This document shows positions 28,977 to 44,000 of a stretch of DNA of 64,000 bases, one piece after another. Each line of letters opens with the position of its first letter. Position 1 is the stretch's first letter. Location: contig RPFO01000728.1 in the NCBI GenBank assembly GCA_009746045.1, positions 107,717-171,716 of the forward strand, in the 5' to 3' direction. Under the pieces are notes generated by a model. The model was not told where the DNA came from and did not search any database. It was given only the letters and a program-made list of their open reading frames with translations. This stretch comes from Mesostigma viride. Lineage: Eukaryota; Streptophyta; Mesostigmatophyceae; Mesostigmatales; Mesostigmataceae. A program made the translations under genes and the position numbers.

Positions 28977-29024
28977 CTAGCCACGGCGGACGAGCAGGTT
29001 GTCCTTGAGGTTGTTGAACGTCTG
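28977..29024 (-). repeat. Second copy of the DENN gene's last exon
   Basis: Directly after the DENN stop codon, the minus strand has CTCCCCCCAG followed by ACGTTCAACAACCTCAAGGA... and ends in its own TAG (28979-28977). It parallels the true last exon (ATGTTCAACGATTACACAGA... TAG at 29039-29037) about 61 bp away, and would encode TFNNLKDNLLVRRG in place of MFNDYTDNLLSHHG. It could act as an alternative last exon or be a decayed duplicate. Confidence 0.7.
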
Positions 29025-29036
29025 GGGGGAGAGCAC

Positions 29037-38000: not shown

Positions 38001-41000
38001 GATTTGGGTTGGGGCGAGGTGGGTGGGTGGGGTGGAAGACGCATAAACAAAGCAAATACCGATGAACAACCGCCCGGATGACATTGGCAGTTCAAGCTGT
38101 AGGGTGTGCGGTGTAGGGTTTACGGTTTGTGGTTAAGCGTGAGGTGCAGGGGGGATAGTTCAGGCTATAGGTTAAAGGGTTTCGGAAGGTGAGAGGGCAG
38201 CAAGGCCCTGGGGTCCCACAAGGAGAAAATTCAAAAAAAATTAAGGAATTGAAGCATCAAAACTGAAATTTAGCGCGCTTCTTTCTCACTACACCCCCAT
38301 CGTTATGTGGTCCTACACAACCATCGTTATGTGGTCCTACACCCCCATCGTTATGTGGTCCTACACCCCCGTCGTTATGTGGTCCTACACCCCTGTCGTT
38401 ATGTGGTCCTACACCCCCATCATTGTCATACACCCCCATCAGCTCCACATCACCTTCAAACTTCCGTCATGGTCATTGACCCCCCATCATGTACCATCAA
38501 CTCCCATCATTATCCAGAAAGGCTCTGCTTCCTGAGCCTGACCATTACTAGGCTTAGCGAGGGCAGCCCCTTTGGTGGCCAGATCGCCCAGACCTAGTAC
38601 TAAACTTCCCCCCCCCCTCACCTCCAACGCCGGTTCCAGGGACCCGCTCGCCCCCCCCTGCTTGACCCCTCCTTGTTGCCGGCCCGACATGCCACCCGAT
38701 TCCGCCCCAGACGACCCCTCACCCACTCCTGCCTTCCGCACCGGCGACGCCTGCTTCAGAAGCTCCTCCAGCGTGACACGTGGCGCTGCCTTGTCGTCGC
38801 AATCCCCCCCCTCACAGTCCCCGTCATAACAACAATGCTCCCGCTCGTCAATCGTCGTATCGTTATCCACCGTGCTATCCAAGGGGCTGCATTGACCGAG
38901 CTCCAAGTGCTCATCGCCACCACCACCCGCATACCCGCACTGACCAGCATAACCCCCCCCACCAGAGTAACCGCCACCTAGACCGCCAGCACTGCCCTGA
39001 CCGTCCCGGAAACCCGCCAGGTCATCCTCCCCCGCGGGCCCCTCCCGGCTCTCGTCATCCCCAGGTGGGTTCCCCCGCACTGACAGATCGTCGCCAGGTG
39101 TCGTGTGGCCGTTGCAACCGTTGTCACTGTCCGTGATGGTCACCTCATCATCCTCCCGCGCCGACATCGCCTCGCCGCCGACCTCGCCCGTCCGGTACCC
39201 CTCCCCCACATCCCTGCCATCATCGCAAACCATGATCTCGGCCCCGCTCTCATCCGTGCGAAACGCGACCTCGGGCCCATTCGCGGCATCCTCAAGATAC
39301 CTGCCCCCAAGATCATGGTCGCCTTCCTTCGAATATCTCGCCCGCAGACCACTCTCCTCCTTGCTATACATCGCCTCCTTGCAAAACACAACCTCCGCCC
39401 CTGCGCCATCCTCACGGAAAGGCAACGCGGTGGCAGCACCACGACTGCCCTCGGCCTCCTTGCGATACAACACCACGGGCTCCCCCTCGTCCTCGTCCTT
39501 GTCCATGTCGCTGCACTCGCCCAGCGAGAGGCGCCGGGGTTGCGGCTCTGAGGCGGGACGGGGGGGAGAATGCGCCTCGGCATCCCTACCAATCGACGCG
39601 GAATTCAAGTTCATGGGCCCCTCCTGCAGAGATTGCGCGCGCTCTGGCCCACTAGGCGTGGCCAACTGCCCTTGCCCCTCCCCTTCTCGTCCGGCTTTCC
39701 CAGAGTCGGTGGAACTGGTCGGGTGCGCCTTGGGTGATGTCATCGCCTTGGGTGATGTTAACGCGTTGGGTGACGTCATCGCCTTGGGTGATGTCATCGT
39801 GGTCACAGATGCGGCACGGGGGGACGACGTGGCGAGCGAGGCCTCGGCGGCGAGGCATGAGACCACCTCGGTGATGCGGATGAGGCGCTCCTGGGCAAGC
39901 ACGCTGTGATGAAGGGGTATGGGCACGTGCCGGAAGCGGATTGAAAGCGTATGATAGGTTCAAACTCACATGGGGTGAAAGGGATAAGGGGGTAAATCAT
40001 GGGGTGAGGCATGAGTCGCTCCTGGGCCAGCACGCTGTGGTAAAATAGGGGCAGGCAAGTAAAAGACGTGAAAGGGATGGGGTGAATGGGCGAAGGGGGT
40101 GATTCACAAACCACTCCTGGGCCAGCACGCTGCGGTCAAGGGGTGTGAGCGCGGGCATGAAGAGGGTGGTATAAAGGGTGGGTGGGTGGGGAAGGTACGA
40201 GGGGGTGAACGACAAGCCATGCTTGCACTAGCACGCTGCAGCAAAGCATACCTGGACAAATAGTAAACTAAATGTTGTGCCACGTCAAGGGAAATATTTG
40301 GTGAACACAGGCAGCCGATTTGGGACGGGTACCAAGAGTGTCAGCTGAAAGCAGCTTCTGCTTTAAGGATTGTGGTCAGGATGTCAGGGGGAAGGACCGT
40401 TGAAGGGGGAAAAGTGGGCGAGCACATGAAAACAACGTGAAACACACAGCTTTAAATTGCTATCTTTTTGCATGGGTTAAATGGAGTGCAACAGGGTGAA
40501 GAGACAGCATCCGCGAGGATCAGCTATTCATCCACATTCTTGTATAGTCAGCCGACTAGTCAACGTTCAACGTTCAGTACATGGAAAGCAGTTGCTGCAC
40601 CACAAGCGGAGAATGCACCTGGCCAAGACCTCCGTATGGTCATTGCGCACGTTTAGCCACAGGCTCGGCACCAGTCTCTCTACATCCATCTGCACACGCC
40701 GTGACGGCTGCGCCACATGCTCGGCACAAGTGCTTGCTGCTCCCCATGTGGATCACGCACCTGGCCAACACCTCGAAATGAAGGTCGAAGAACGGGTAGC
40801 ACGTGAGGAAGCAGTAACATCTGGGCGCTGCCACGAGGTGGCGCGACAGCGGGCGCGCGCCAAATTTAGACGTCTCCCCCCCCGGGCGTACCACGCCGGG
40901 TACGTAGTCCAGCATCTCGTGGACCACCATGCACACGCCGTACAAAGGGGCACTCTCGCCGGACTGCGAGCGTTTTGACGATAAATTAAAGCGAAAAATT

Positions 41001-44000
41001 AAAGCCATAAATTGGAATGACGAGTTGGAAGGAAGAAAAGGAACGATAAATTGGAAGCATGAACAATACGCAAACGATGGCGACAGGGAAGGGCAAGAGG
41101 GACGGCAAATAGGGAACAAATAGGAGTGCTATCACCACTGTATGAGACGCTGTGCCTGGCCATTGCTCAGCCATGATCATCTTCCACCCTATGTCCGCAC
41201 CTTAGCTGCTGGAATACATAGTAGTAGTTACCACCTGCTACCAGTGGTGCAGGTGCACTTTGTGCCCCCAGAGCAGGTGTAGTTTACACCCTACCCTTGC
41301 AGGAATTAGCCCAGATTGTATTGAAAGCCATACGCCCCTTCTCAGAGATACGTGCTACATGTACTCCCAACGGAGATATGTTCCAATTTACCAATGTATC
41401 CAGGGTGACCGGAGTCATTATTACAACAATGAGGGGAGCACATACAACACTCTATAGCCTAGCTGTAGCGGCGATCCTGTCGTCTCACTCACACCAGACG
41501 ACAGGATCCTAGCTGTAGGCCTAGCTGTAGGTCCAGAGAGTTGCGCCAATAGATTGTGATGGCATATTTTGAGGATGTTGGAAAGGCAGGGCGGGCGAGA
41601 GGGCCGCAGAGCGCAAAGCATTTCTAACAAATTGCAGATGGATACCCATGATCACAGAGAAGCATGGCAGGGGGAAAAAAAGGATACCGTAGAATTCTGG
41701 ACGCTGGATGCTGTACAAAGGTTCCGACAAAATGTGGAATTTTAATTACGGTTGCAGGTTACAGGTGAAGGGTGTGTCTGCGACATGAAAAAGGCTGTCT
41801 GTGCGTGCTCCGTGATGACAAGTTATTCGATGGCTACATCAATCAATTAATTAATTAAACTCGTGCTCCCGTTGGGGAGTCACGGAGCACCGAAGTGCTT
41901 TTAATCCCTGTATATGCACAACAGGAAGAAAGGGTAGAGAGCCCCTTTGGATGGCTACATAGCCTGGCGTACGAGGTGTGCTATCATTGCGGAAGCAAAT
42001 CACCGCAGACCAGCAAGCCCAGCATGATACTGGGTCAATGATGTTGGGTGAGCATGCGGCCGATAGAAGGCAGGCACTAGCCACTATGCCTCATGCAGCA
42101 AGATGGATACACGCACGGCGTGAAAGGCAAGGGCAAGGCAAGTGGAAAGAAAAACAAGGGGCAGGGCACATTAGGGAGAAGCAAAGCAAGGAAAAGAAAC
42201 GTAGGGGGAGGAAACTAAAAGGGAAAGGAAGGAGGAATAAGCAGCATGGTATACAAGGGTAAGGAAAGAAGGACAAGTAGCATTTTATACCATGGAAAGG
42301 AAACAAGGAAACGGAGCATCGTATAAAAGGGAGAAGGAAAAGGAGCACTGCACGAAAGGGAAAGAAGGAAAATGAGCATCGCACGAAATGGAAAGAAGGA
42401 AAAGGAGCATCGTATTCACATGCCTGCAGCAGGAAGATATATGACATCTCGTCGTCATCCAGGTATTTCTGTTTCAAGAAAGATGCGTGACAAGTGGACA
42501 ACAAGCACGGTCACAAAGCGGCATGGAGGGGCAAGGGCAGGGAGGAGCACATGTGCCATGTCAAGGCAACACCCTTTGTAGGAGGCGACGCATGTGGGGA
42601 CAGAGCACACGGAAGCACAATATACATGCTGGATGGGTGCTCCAAACAGACTGGCACTCCAAACATCTGCAATATCATTCTAGTTTCATCCTTCATGTGG
42701 GGTGCTGAGTTTGCGTGGGCGGACGGGGCGGTGGGGCCAGGCAAGTAGGGCGGCGACAAAAGGCCATCCTCTCAAGCACGATCGCTCGATGAACTGATTC
42801 GGCAGGCAGTAGTGGGACACACATTGCATTTTATCTCAGGCCTGTTGTTTTGCTGTTTATATTTTCCCCCCTGAGTCTCAGGGTAGGAAACATAAACAGC
42901 AAAACAACATCAAATAAACAGTGTCCGTGAGCTTGACCGGCTATCGTAGCTTTGAGAGGCAGAGACCTTTTGTCCAGGCGGTGATATGCATGGATAGGCG
43001 GGGCAACCTGCTGGATTCTTGTGCATGTACTAGCACACCGGGCAGTTAGGCTTGAACAGCGCATCGGTTCGAACAGCAGCCAGCCACCCAGAAAAAACGG
43101 GCCTCAGCACAGGTCTTCCAGTAAGCACTTGTACGGGCGTCCGTCCGGGAACTCTGCACGCAAGACCCACCCACCTCTTCAGCCCGTCCACCCACTTCAT
43201 GCACCCATCTACCCTGCTGCCAGTTTGCGTGCCCCCCTTGACTGGCTGCAGACATTGTCGTCAAGCCTAGCTCATGGATGGCTGCCCTGATGCATAGCGC
43301 CACGGTCCACAACAGTGGACCTATTTCCTACCCACCTGGTGGCACGCCAATGACGTTTGCACGCAAGTTACCCCCCTGGCTGTCGATGGCCTCTTCGAGT
43401 ATGCTTCACAGATGATGAGGGATAGTACTAGTAACAACAGTAGGAGTATGCTTCACGGATCATGAGGGATAGTACTAGAAACAACAGTAGGAGTATGCTT
43501 CACGGATCATAAGGGATAGGACTAGCGACAACAGGAGTAGCCCGCCCCCACTGGATGCACACCACGCCATTAAGCTTGCTCGAAAGCGCATTCCCTCCCC
43601 CCCACGCCGTTGATGATTCCAAGCGCATCCCCTTCCCCCACCCACCTGGCTGTAGACGACCTCGTTGAGTTTGCTCATGGAGGGCGTGCGCTCGACCGCA
43701 AACGGCTGCACGCCAAAGGGGAAGCAGAAGCTGGCCACGTGGTCCGCACACAGCTTCTTGCCAGGTGGGTACTTGAACAGAATCTGGGTGGGGGGGGGGA
43801 TGGATGTGGGAGTAGGGTGCGCAGGGTTTGGTATGGGAGTAGTAAACACACATGTGTACCACACCCGTAACAAGGAACCGCGTCTTGCCGGGCGCGTACT
43901 TGAACCGCATCTGGAGGCCCCGGGGGGATGGGTGCGGCAATTTAAGTGGGTGCGCAGGGGTGGCAGCGATTGCAAATATTGTGTCAGAAGGGCAGTGAAT

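Follow-up and report, generated by a model that had tools for sequence, protein, structure and literature searches.

Tandem repeats that span exon-intron boundaries have been described in lancelets as "mirages". According to the accessible text of two reports (PMC3087553, PMC3902484), they occur at 5' and 3' boundaries in the genes for the globins BflGb6 and BflGb9, Adh3, troponin C and PGBD5, with units of 10-160 bp; many copies, though not all, carry AG/GT, splicing was reported to be undisturbed, and the authors remarked that mirages may be more general in cephalochordates. A related event is known from potato, where the tandem duplication of a segment crossing an intron-exon boundary gave rise to a new intron in an RdRp gene, as stated in the available part of PMC4974935. 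Here, we analyzed a stretch of 64,000 nucleotides (the window) that forms the end of a 172-kb contig (RPFO01000728.1) in the 440-Mb assembly of Mesostigma viride, a streptophyte green alga with long introns (mean 1142 bp in the text available from PMC6947507). The window contains a gene encoding a DENN-domain protein in which exon edges recur within the neighboring introns. Across a sample of genes from the same assembly, about one quarter of the exon ends are copied, together with the splice site, into the adjoining intron.

Exon-edge copies in the DENN-domain gene

The DENN-domain gene is located on the minus strand and extends from position 44692 to the stop codon at 29037. The splice-consistent model comprises 14 exons (a-n) with an unbroken frame of 1237 codons and 13 introns, all of the GT-AG type except for one GC-AG intron, and the predicted product harbors the Pfam domains uDENN, DENN and dDENN. 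Across these 1237 amino acids (aa) the model is identical to the published model Mv06773-RA, which has 32 additional N-terminal aa and one insert of 17 aa. Each exon edge was represented by a 40-bp probe (28 bp of exon and 12 bp outside), for which copies were sought in the adjacent 400 bp of non-coding DNA; this test covers that side only, and copies elsewhere are outside its reach. A score of at least 27 was taken as a match, a threshold that was chosen after the DENN scores were known and was then kept for all later samples.

Direct copies were detected at 10 of the 28 DENN exon edges: a 3', b 5', b 3', d 3', e 5', f 3', h 3', i 3', k 3' and the stop end of n (Table 1). The preliminary description of this DNA, made from the sequence alone, had counted seven exons with local copies; the copies are real, and the count was revised to ten edges in nine exons. 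It had also noted both polarities, which we observed as well: 3' edges with their donors were copied downstream and 5' edges with their acceptors upstream, and self-BLAST of the region returned the same pairs. No inverted pair was listed in this self-BLAST, and the DENN edge probes gave 0 matches in 921 comparisons with introns more than 1500 bp away. Additional second copies with scores of at least 25 occur at e 5', f 3' and i 3', and a third upstream copy at exon e and a third downstream copy at exon h were recognized by eye only.

The copies at exon f belong to an array with a 97-bp unit (Tandem Repeats Finder (TRF), 36996-37214). The nearer of them matches the probe at 33 of 34 positions, with identities of 21/22 in the exon part and 73/75 in the intron part. 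The nearer 3' copy of exon i is devoid of a donor (ATGAAT), and a 47-bp array at 43397-43534 overlaps the end of the exon b 3' copy. The last exon had been described as copied in whole after the stop codon; such a copy is present, and it was found as a copy of the exon's end, for which self-BLAST aligned 28973-29026 with 29033-29086 at 74% identity. The upstream copy of exon b matches its probe at 43883-43914 (score 39) and accounts for the 17 extra aa of Mv06773-RA. Apart from this copy, the published protein omits the copies, and the segment 43860-43910 is either a likely error of annotation or a newly arisen cassette exon.

Frequency of edge copies in the assembly

Edges outside the window were sampled by homology, using protein kinase matches with short open frames (20 stretches, then a further 12) and kinesin matches (20 stretches). 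Kinase edges were placed by a splice-site matrix and by eye, while kinesin edges were placed by a fixed rule before scoring. With a required splice-site score of at least 6, the edges left unplaced numbered 2 of 40 and 8 of 30 in the two successive kinase sets and 9 of 40 in the kinesin set. Copies at the loci L014, L025 and L032 were already visible in translations or site lists before the edges were fixed. The positions of four edges (L020 3', L025 3', L026 5' and L027 5') were not set until the first scoring had been done; the repeat at L027 was already known, and its late-placed edge is a match.

Direct copies occur at 14 of 60 kinase edges (9/38 in the first and 5/22 in the second set) and at 10 of 31 kinesin edges, hence at 24 of the 91 homology-sampled splice edges. 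The feature is, as previously proposed, not confined to one gene. With the splice edges of the DENN gene (9/27), a PsbP-like gene of the window (2/8) and a DENN paralogue (2/22), the pooled number is 37 of 148. These 148 do not include the stop ends of exon n in the two DENN paralogues, both of which are copied, nor 5 of the 28 paralogue edges (e 3', both edges of f and both of g). Of the latter, f 3' scored 21 and would be a miss, and a position first taken as g 3' scored 65 but is no exon end. Further edge copies outside the 148 were found at the L070 donor (score 33), at L071 and at L072 (about 54 bp of exon).

As a control, probes were taken from mid-intron positions, of which 6.9% (n = 5463, 113 introns) had a local copy. 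The edge/mid-intron ratio was 3.62 for the pooled edges (bootstrap 95% interval 2.35-5.55) and 4.0 for the homology-sampled edges alone (2.23-7.58). This comparison had been suggested in the preliminary description as a check on its genome-wide claim, and the 3.6-fold difference obtained on our sample (37/148 versus 6.9%) did not refute it. Inverted copies were absent from all 148 pooled splice edges, and edge probes compared with the flanks of other sampled loci gave 3 matches in 1612. Together with the distant-intron comparison in the DENN gene, these controls argue against chance or composition as the source of the copies. Tandem repeats are generally known as an assembly hazard. However, for 27 of the 37 copies the divergence from the exon amounts to 5-20% over the aligned block, which is hardly expected from collapsed read errors, and the published assembly was built from PacBio and Illumina reads and optical maps, as described in the accessible text of PMC6947507. 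We therefore consider assembly error or chance similarity very improbable.

Structure and decay of the copies

The copies at exon f, at L071, at L028 and at exon k of the DENN paralogue appear fresh and are tandem duplications across the junction. L071 contains a 224-bp self-match of 95% identity at a shift of 88, which starts about 30 bp inside the exon and consists of units of about 86 bp; at L028, 67 bp, mostly intron, recur at a shift of 83. The paralogue is located on contig C899 (locus L003) and has its introns at exon positions matching those of the DENN gene in the window. Directly at the donor of its exon k, a 27-bp unit is repeated 7.3 times (7699-7895); in the units, GT or GC comes after an exon end of AAG or AAA, which makes the array a row of in-frame potential donors. 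The preliminary description had spoken of a copying of the junction itself. This was not established, as the fresh units include intron sequence and tandem copies made up of intron alone are also common.

Both DENN paralogues have copies of the exon k 3' edge, which differ in shift (109 bp versus the 27-bp unit) and apparently arose independently. Edges i and n are likewise copied in both paralogues, an overlap that could be chance. The repeated AAG/GT unit in the paralogue would be in line with intron gain by an AGGT-containing tandem duplication (Rogers model), in which a new intron arises within a former exon. However, the intron following exon k occupies the same protein position in both paralogues and is therefore older than the array; this model was rejected for the DENN gene, since its introns match those of the paralogue in position and fresh units contain intron. 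Introners, that is, similar introns dispersed over many loci, were rejected on the 3 matches in 1612 comparisons with other loci. Intron gain by either route is thus very improbable as the source of the copies. Tandem duplication of whole exons, as in mutually exclusive exons, was also rejected, because the exon part measures only 3-50 bp; no whole exon with both splice sites is among the 37 splice-edge copies, and the last-exon copy lies after the stop.

The shifts of the 37 copies range from 34 to 276 (median 111); the five above 160 are perhaps multiples or reflect later insertions. The exon part has a mean length of 25 bp. Most copies are no longer visibly whole tandem units, and for many single, partly decayed copies we infer a tandem origin. 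With GC counted as a kept donor, the splice dinucleotide was kept in 27 copies, lost in 7 and unaligned in 3. Mismatch rates at the three codon positions were 0.085, 0.098 and 0.135 (p = 0.18). Copies serving as alternative or decoy splice sites, or as cassette exons under selection, would be consistent with the published model coding through 43860-43910 and with the recurrence of the copies of exons i, k and n in the DENN paralogue. However, dinucleotides are kept (27 of 34 aligned) about as often as overall identity predicts, mismatches are spread across codon positions, and a single copy is part of the published protein. A function of this kind therefore appears improbable; the copies look dead and seem to decay like unconstrained DNA beside a constrained exon.

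Probable origin of the copies and a possible bias toward junctions

The best explanation, which we regard as likely, is tandem duplication of DNA straddling the junction, followed by removal of the inner copy in splicing and neutral decay. A segment of tens to about 150 bp across an exon-intron junction would be duplicated in tandem, by slippage or unequal exchange. If the outermost splice site stays in use in the RNA, the inner copy would fall within the intron, along with the splice site and the exon fragment that it carries; the duplication would be tolerated because splicing removes this copy. Repeated rounds would build a ladder of copies, and introns may grow over time in this way. The copies would then decay as ordinary non-coding DNA, while constraint on the exon would keep exon-derived copies recognizable for longer than intron-intron pairs.

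Part of the edge excess is expected under this explanation because the exon partner stays constrained while copies decay; edge copies remain visible longer since one partner is frozen, which a duplicated piece of intron does not have. A neutral simulation with a constrained exon and a decaying copy yielded an expected edge/mid-intron ratio of 1.3-1.5, so that junction-specific copying, as implied by the preliminary description, was not established for that share of the excess. Four observations weigh against tandem duplication with neutral decay as outlined. The observed excess is 3.6-fold, above the simulated ratio, and at score 27 bootstrap ratios of 1.55 or less were obtained in 0 of 5000 pooled replicates and in 0.18% for the homology-sampled set. 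The exon part exceeds 45 bp in 1 of 37 copies, whereas 23 are predicted if units equal in length to the shift are placed at random over the junction. The recognizable intron part is 14 bp or shorter in 16 of 24 high-identity pairs; one possible reason is that low-complexity intron sequence may decay faster. Finally, 0 of 17 Ras-family start and stop edges (nine loci; nine stops and eight starts) were copied. The remaining, approximately twofold excess over the neutral expectation is suggestive of something beyond the simulated decay effect, given a simple simulation and mid-intron rates that vary much among introns. The pure neutral model was accordingly kept as a base and rejected as the sole account.

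A mutational process coupled to splice junctions through transcription, nascent RNA or polymerase pausing, by which introns would grow from their ends, might explain the edge excess beyond the simulated ratio and the limitation of the exon part to about 25 bp. In 12 long introns of the DENN, PsbP-like and paralogue genes, copies were found at 92 of 577 probes within 250 bp of an edge and at 8 of 892 probes at least 400 bp away, with the donor side richer than the acceptor side. Pooled 3' edges were copied more often than 5' edges (25/75 versus 12/73, p = 0.023). The absence of copies at Ras start and stop edges points in the same direction, as do the Ras-locus flanks, which are poor in local copies (1.05% of 948 probes). 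The Ras domain lies in one exon at 8 of 9 loci, which are "intronless" only loosely; a tenth stop (L070, score 16) was set aside as probably lying beyond a donor, and L069 is a partial, terminal-exon match.

However, the near-junction gradient was not repeated in three further introns (near 27/172, deep 55/122, with one deep 52-bp array dominating), and we do not claim it as general. In the kinase and kinesin loci the copy rate was approximately flat from 0 to 500 bp, with only 43 deeper probes and no matches among them, and the 3'/5' difference was not significant there (15/48 versus 9/43, p = 0.34). Moreover, tandem arrays exist far from any junction. Stop edges were copied in three of five genes (DENN, DENN paralogue and the kinase at L029), and since stop codons are copied a splice site is not required. 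At L029 (1144-1320) the kinase coding end and stop codon are copied downstream (score 48), similar to the last DENN exon; this edge was first set aside as a doubtful donor and later counted among stop edges only. Based on these results, a junction-coupled contribution is possible but doubtful. The stronger version, an active process that places duplications mainly at intron ends, most of all at donors, with about 25 bp of exon, and drives outward intron growth genome-wide, we consider somewhat less likely still. Young transposable elements as a cause of the quiet deep introns found no support in one 591-bp deep stretch, which matched elsewhere only in a dispersed repeat of about 110 bp. Deep in a kinesin intron (L072, 338-753), about 8 units of 52 bp form a young tandem array away from junctions.

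Copies in other genes and further repeats of the window

The PsbP-like gene at approximately 3.7-9.2 kb corresponds to the published Mv06771-RA. It shares the feature, as had been stated before, at the exon 3 5' and exon 4 3' edges within the search distance and at the exon 1 3' edge beyond it (Table 1). An intron reported as triplicated at 56650-57088 was recovered as a TRF array in a third gene, with a donor-like GTAAGT in units 1 and 3 by eye.

Table 1. Positions of DENN exons, exon-edge copies and the junction array in the window.
Feature	Position	Strand	Remarks
First coding exon of published DENN model, 32 aa	46569-46664	-	tblastn match 100%
DENN exons a-e	a 44692-44507, b 43783-43646, c 42468-42424, d 40963-40761, e 39903-38622	-	
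DENN exons f-j	f 37950-37193, g 36692-36245, h 35005-34943, i 34014-33940, j 33452-33402	-	
DENN exons k-n	k 32567-32490, l 31494-31237, m 30090-30025, n 29099-29037	-	n ends with stop
Copy of exon a 3' edge and donor	44398-44431	-	GTATGT to GTGTGT; 103 bp downstream; 28/34 identity; score 38
Upstream copy of exon b 5' edge and acceptor	43860-43910	-	51-bp exon in Mv06773-RA; 127 bp away
Copy of exon b 3' edge	43370-43403	-	donor lost (GG); 270 bp downstream; 27/34; score 33
Copy of exon d 3' edge and donor	40615-40632	-	142 bp downstream; 17/18; score 31; intron part 20/27
Upstream ladder, exon e 5' edge and acceptor	40011-40141 (40011-40039, 40114-40141)	-	scores 48, 36
Two downstream copies of exon f 3' edge and donor	36987-37117 (37084-37117, 36987-37020)	-	scores 63, 43
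Copy of exon h 3' edge and donor	34860-34889	-	shift 76; 28/30; score 50; intron part 36/53
Two downstream copies of exon i 3' edge	33725-33848 (33815-33848, 33725-33743)	-	scores 33, 28
Copy of exon k 3' edge and donor (GTATGG)	32379-32408	-	109 bp downstream; 25/30; score 35
Post-stop copy of the last exon's end	28973-29003	-	60 bp away; 24/31; score 27
PsbP-like, three downstream copies of exon 4 3' edge	4742-4867	-	scores 37, 30, 25
PsbP-like, upstream copy of exon 3 5' edge and acceptor	7022-7053	-	score 54
PsbP-like, copy of exon 1 3' edge and donor	8534-8561	-	592 bp downstream, beyond the 400-bp search; score 36
Array over exon 3' edge and intron of third gene	56659-57103	-	151 bp x 3.0; TRF

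The 17-mer CGACSGCCGGCGTTTCT has 7 exact sites (55276-55448, 56659-57103, 57644-57660 and 59992-60008), by eye in three separate introns of the gene at 51.8-58.2 kb. Allowing up to 3 mismatches, 24 sites occur in the window compared to 0.23 expected, and the 17-mer is perhaps an intron-borne element. Other repeats comprise a 45-bp satellite at 16660-20634 (88 copies, 98% matches) and a short dispersed repeat of about 110 bp at 41835-41948, which recurs in at least 43 further places in the genome, mostly at 93-96% identity. A minus-strand fragment at 3000-3350, beside the end of the PsbP-like gene, reads by eye like the reverse transcriptase (YADDTTLF) of a long interspersed element (LINE). An Rfam search of the window gave no match reaching the gathering score.

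Significance and comparison with known systems

Edge duplication in the M. viride genome is real and frequent and looks mostly neutral, its frequency and the possible junction bias being the new part. A junction-linked mutational bias is possible because edges exceed the neutral expectation and the exon part is oddly short. The duplications represent a countable route for intron lengthening in a streptophyte alga, and the splice sites carried along could become a source of new exons and introns or of annotation errors; an exon of the published annotation is already such a copy. Whether neutral tandem duplication or a junction-linked process is the cause becomes testable by counting.

The preliminary description had regarded the repeated copying at existing junctions as an undescribed system, which is not supported in view of the lancelet mirages (PMC3087553, PMC3902484). 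Among the papers listed in a literature search largely limited to openly accessible work, we found no report of such duplications in Mesostigma or other algae, and no earlier account in which exon-edge copying is common throughout a genome. In potato (PMC4974935, accessible text), the duplicated segment crosses an intron-exon boundary as in Mesostigma; there the duplication made a new intron, whereas in Mesostigma it lengthens one that was already present, and the copy is apparently unused. The AGGT duplication of Rogers and Hellsten, as outlined in the available part of the same paper, likewise produces tandem copies with splice-site sequence. In contrast, the Mesostigma introns and splice sites pre-existed, and the resolved units mostly include intron.

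The closest resemblance is to the mirages, as far as the accessible text on them extends. In Mesostigma, too, the unit spans the junction (exon f, L028, L071 and paralogue exon k), and copies occur at both boundaries (12 of 73 5' edges and 25 of 75 3' edges). The shifts of 34-276 (median 111) and the 27-bp unit compare with lancelet units of 10-160 bp, and AG/GT is partly kept (27 kept, 7 lost, 3 unaligned). For the lancelet genes, length instability and RNA evidence have been reported, while the Mesostigma copies are known from one assembly and from protein models. Unlike the mirages, which were described from a handful of lancelet genes, the copies reported here occur in a streptophyte green alga and at 37 of 148 sampled splice edges; mirages are thereby extended from a few lancelet genes to an unrelated genome in which they are frequent. 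Taken together, the kind of repeat is already known, and the lineage and the frequency are new.

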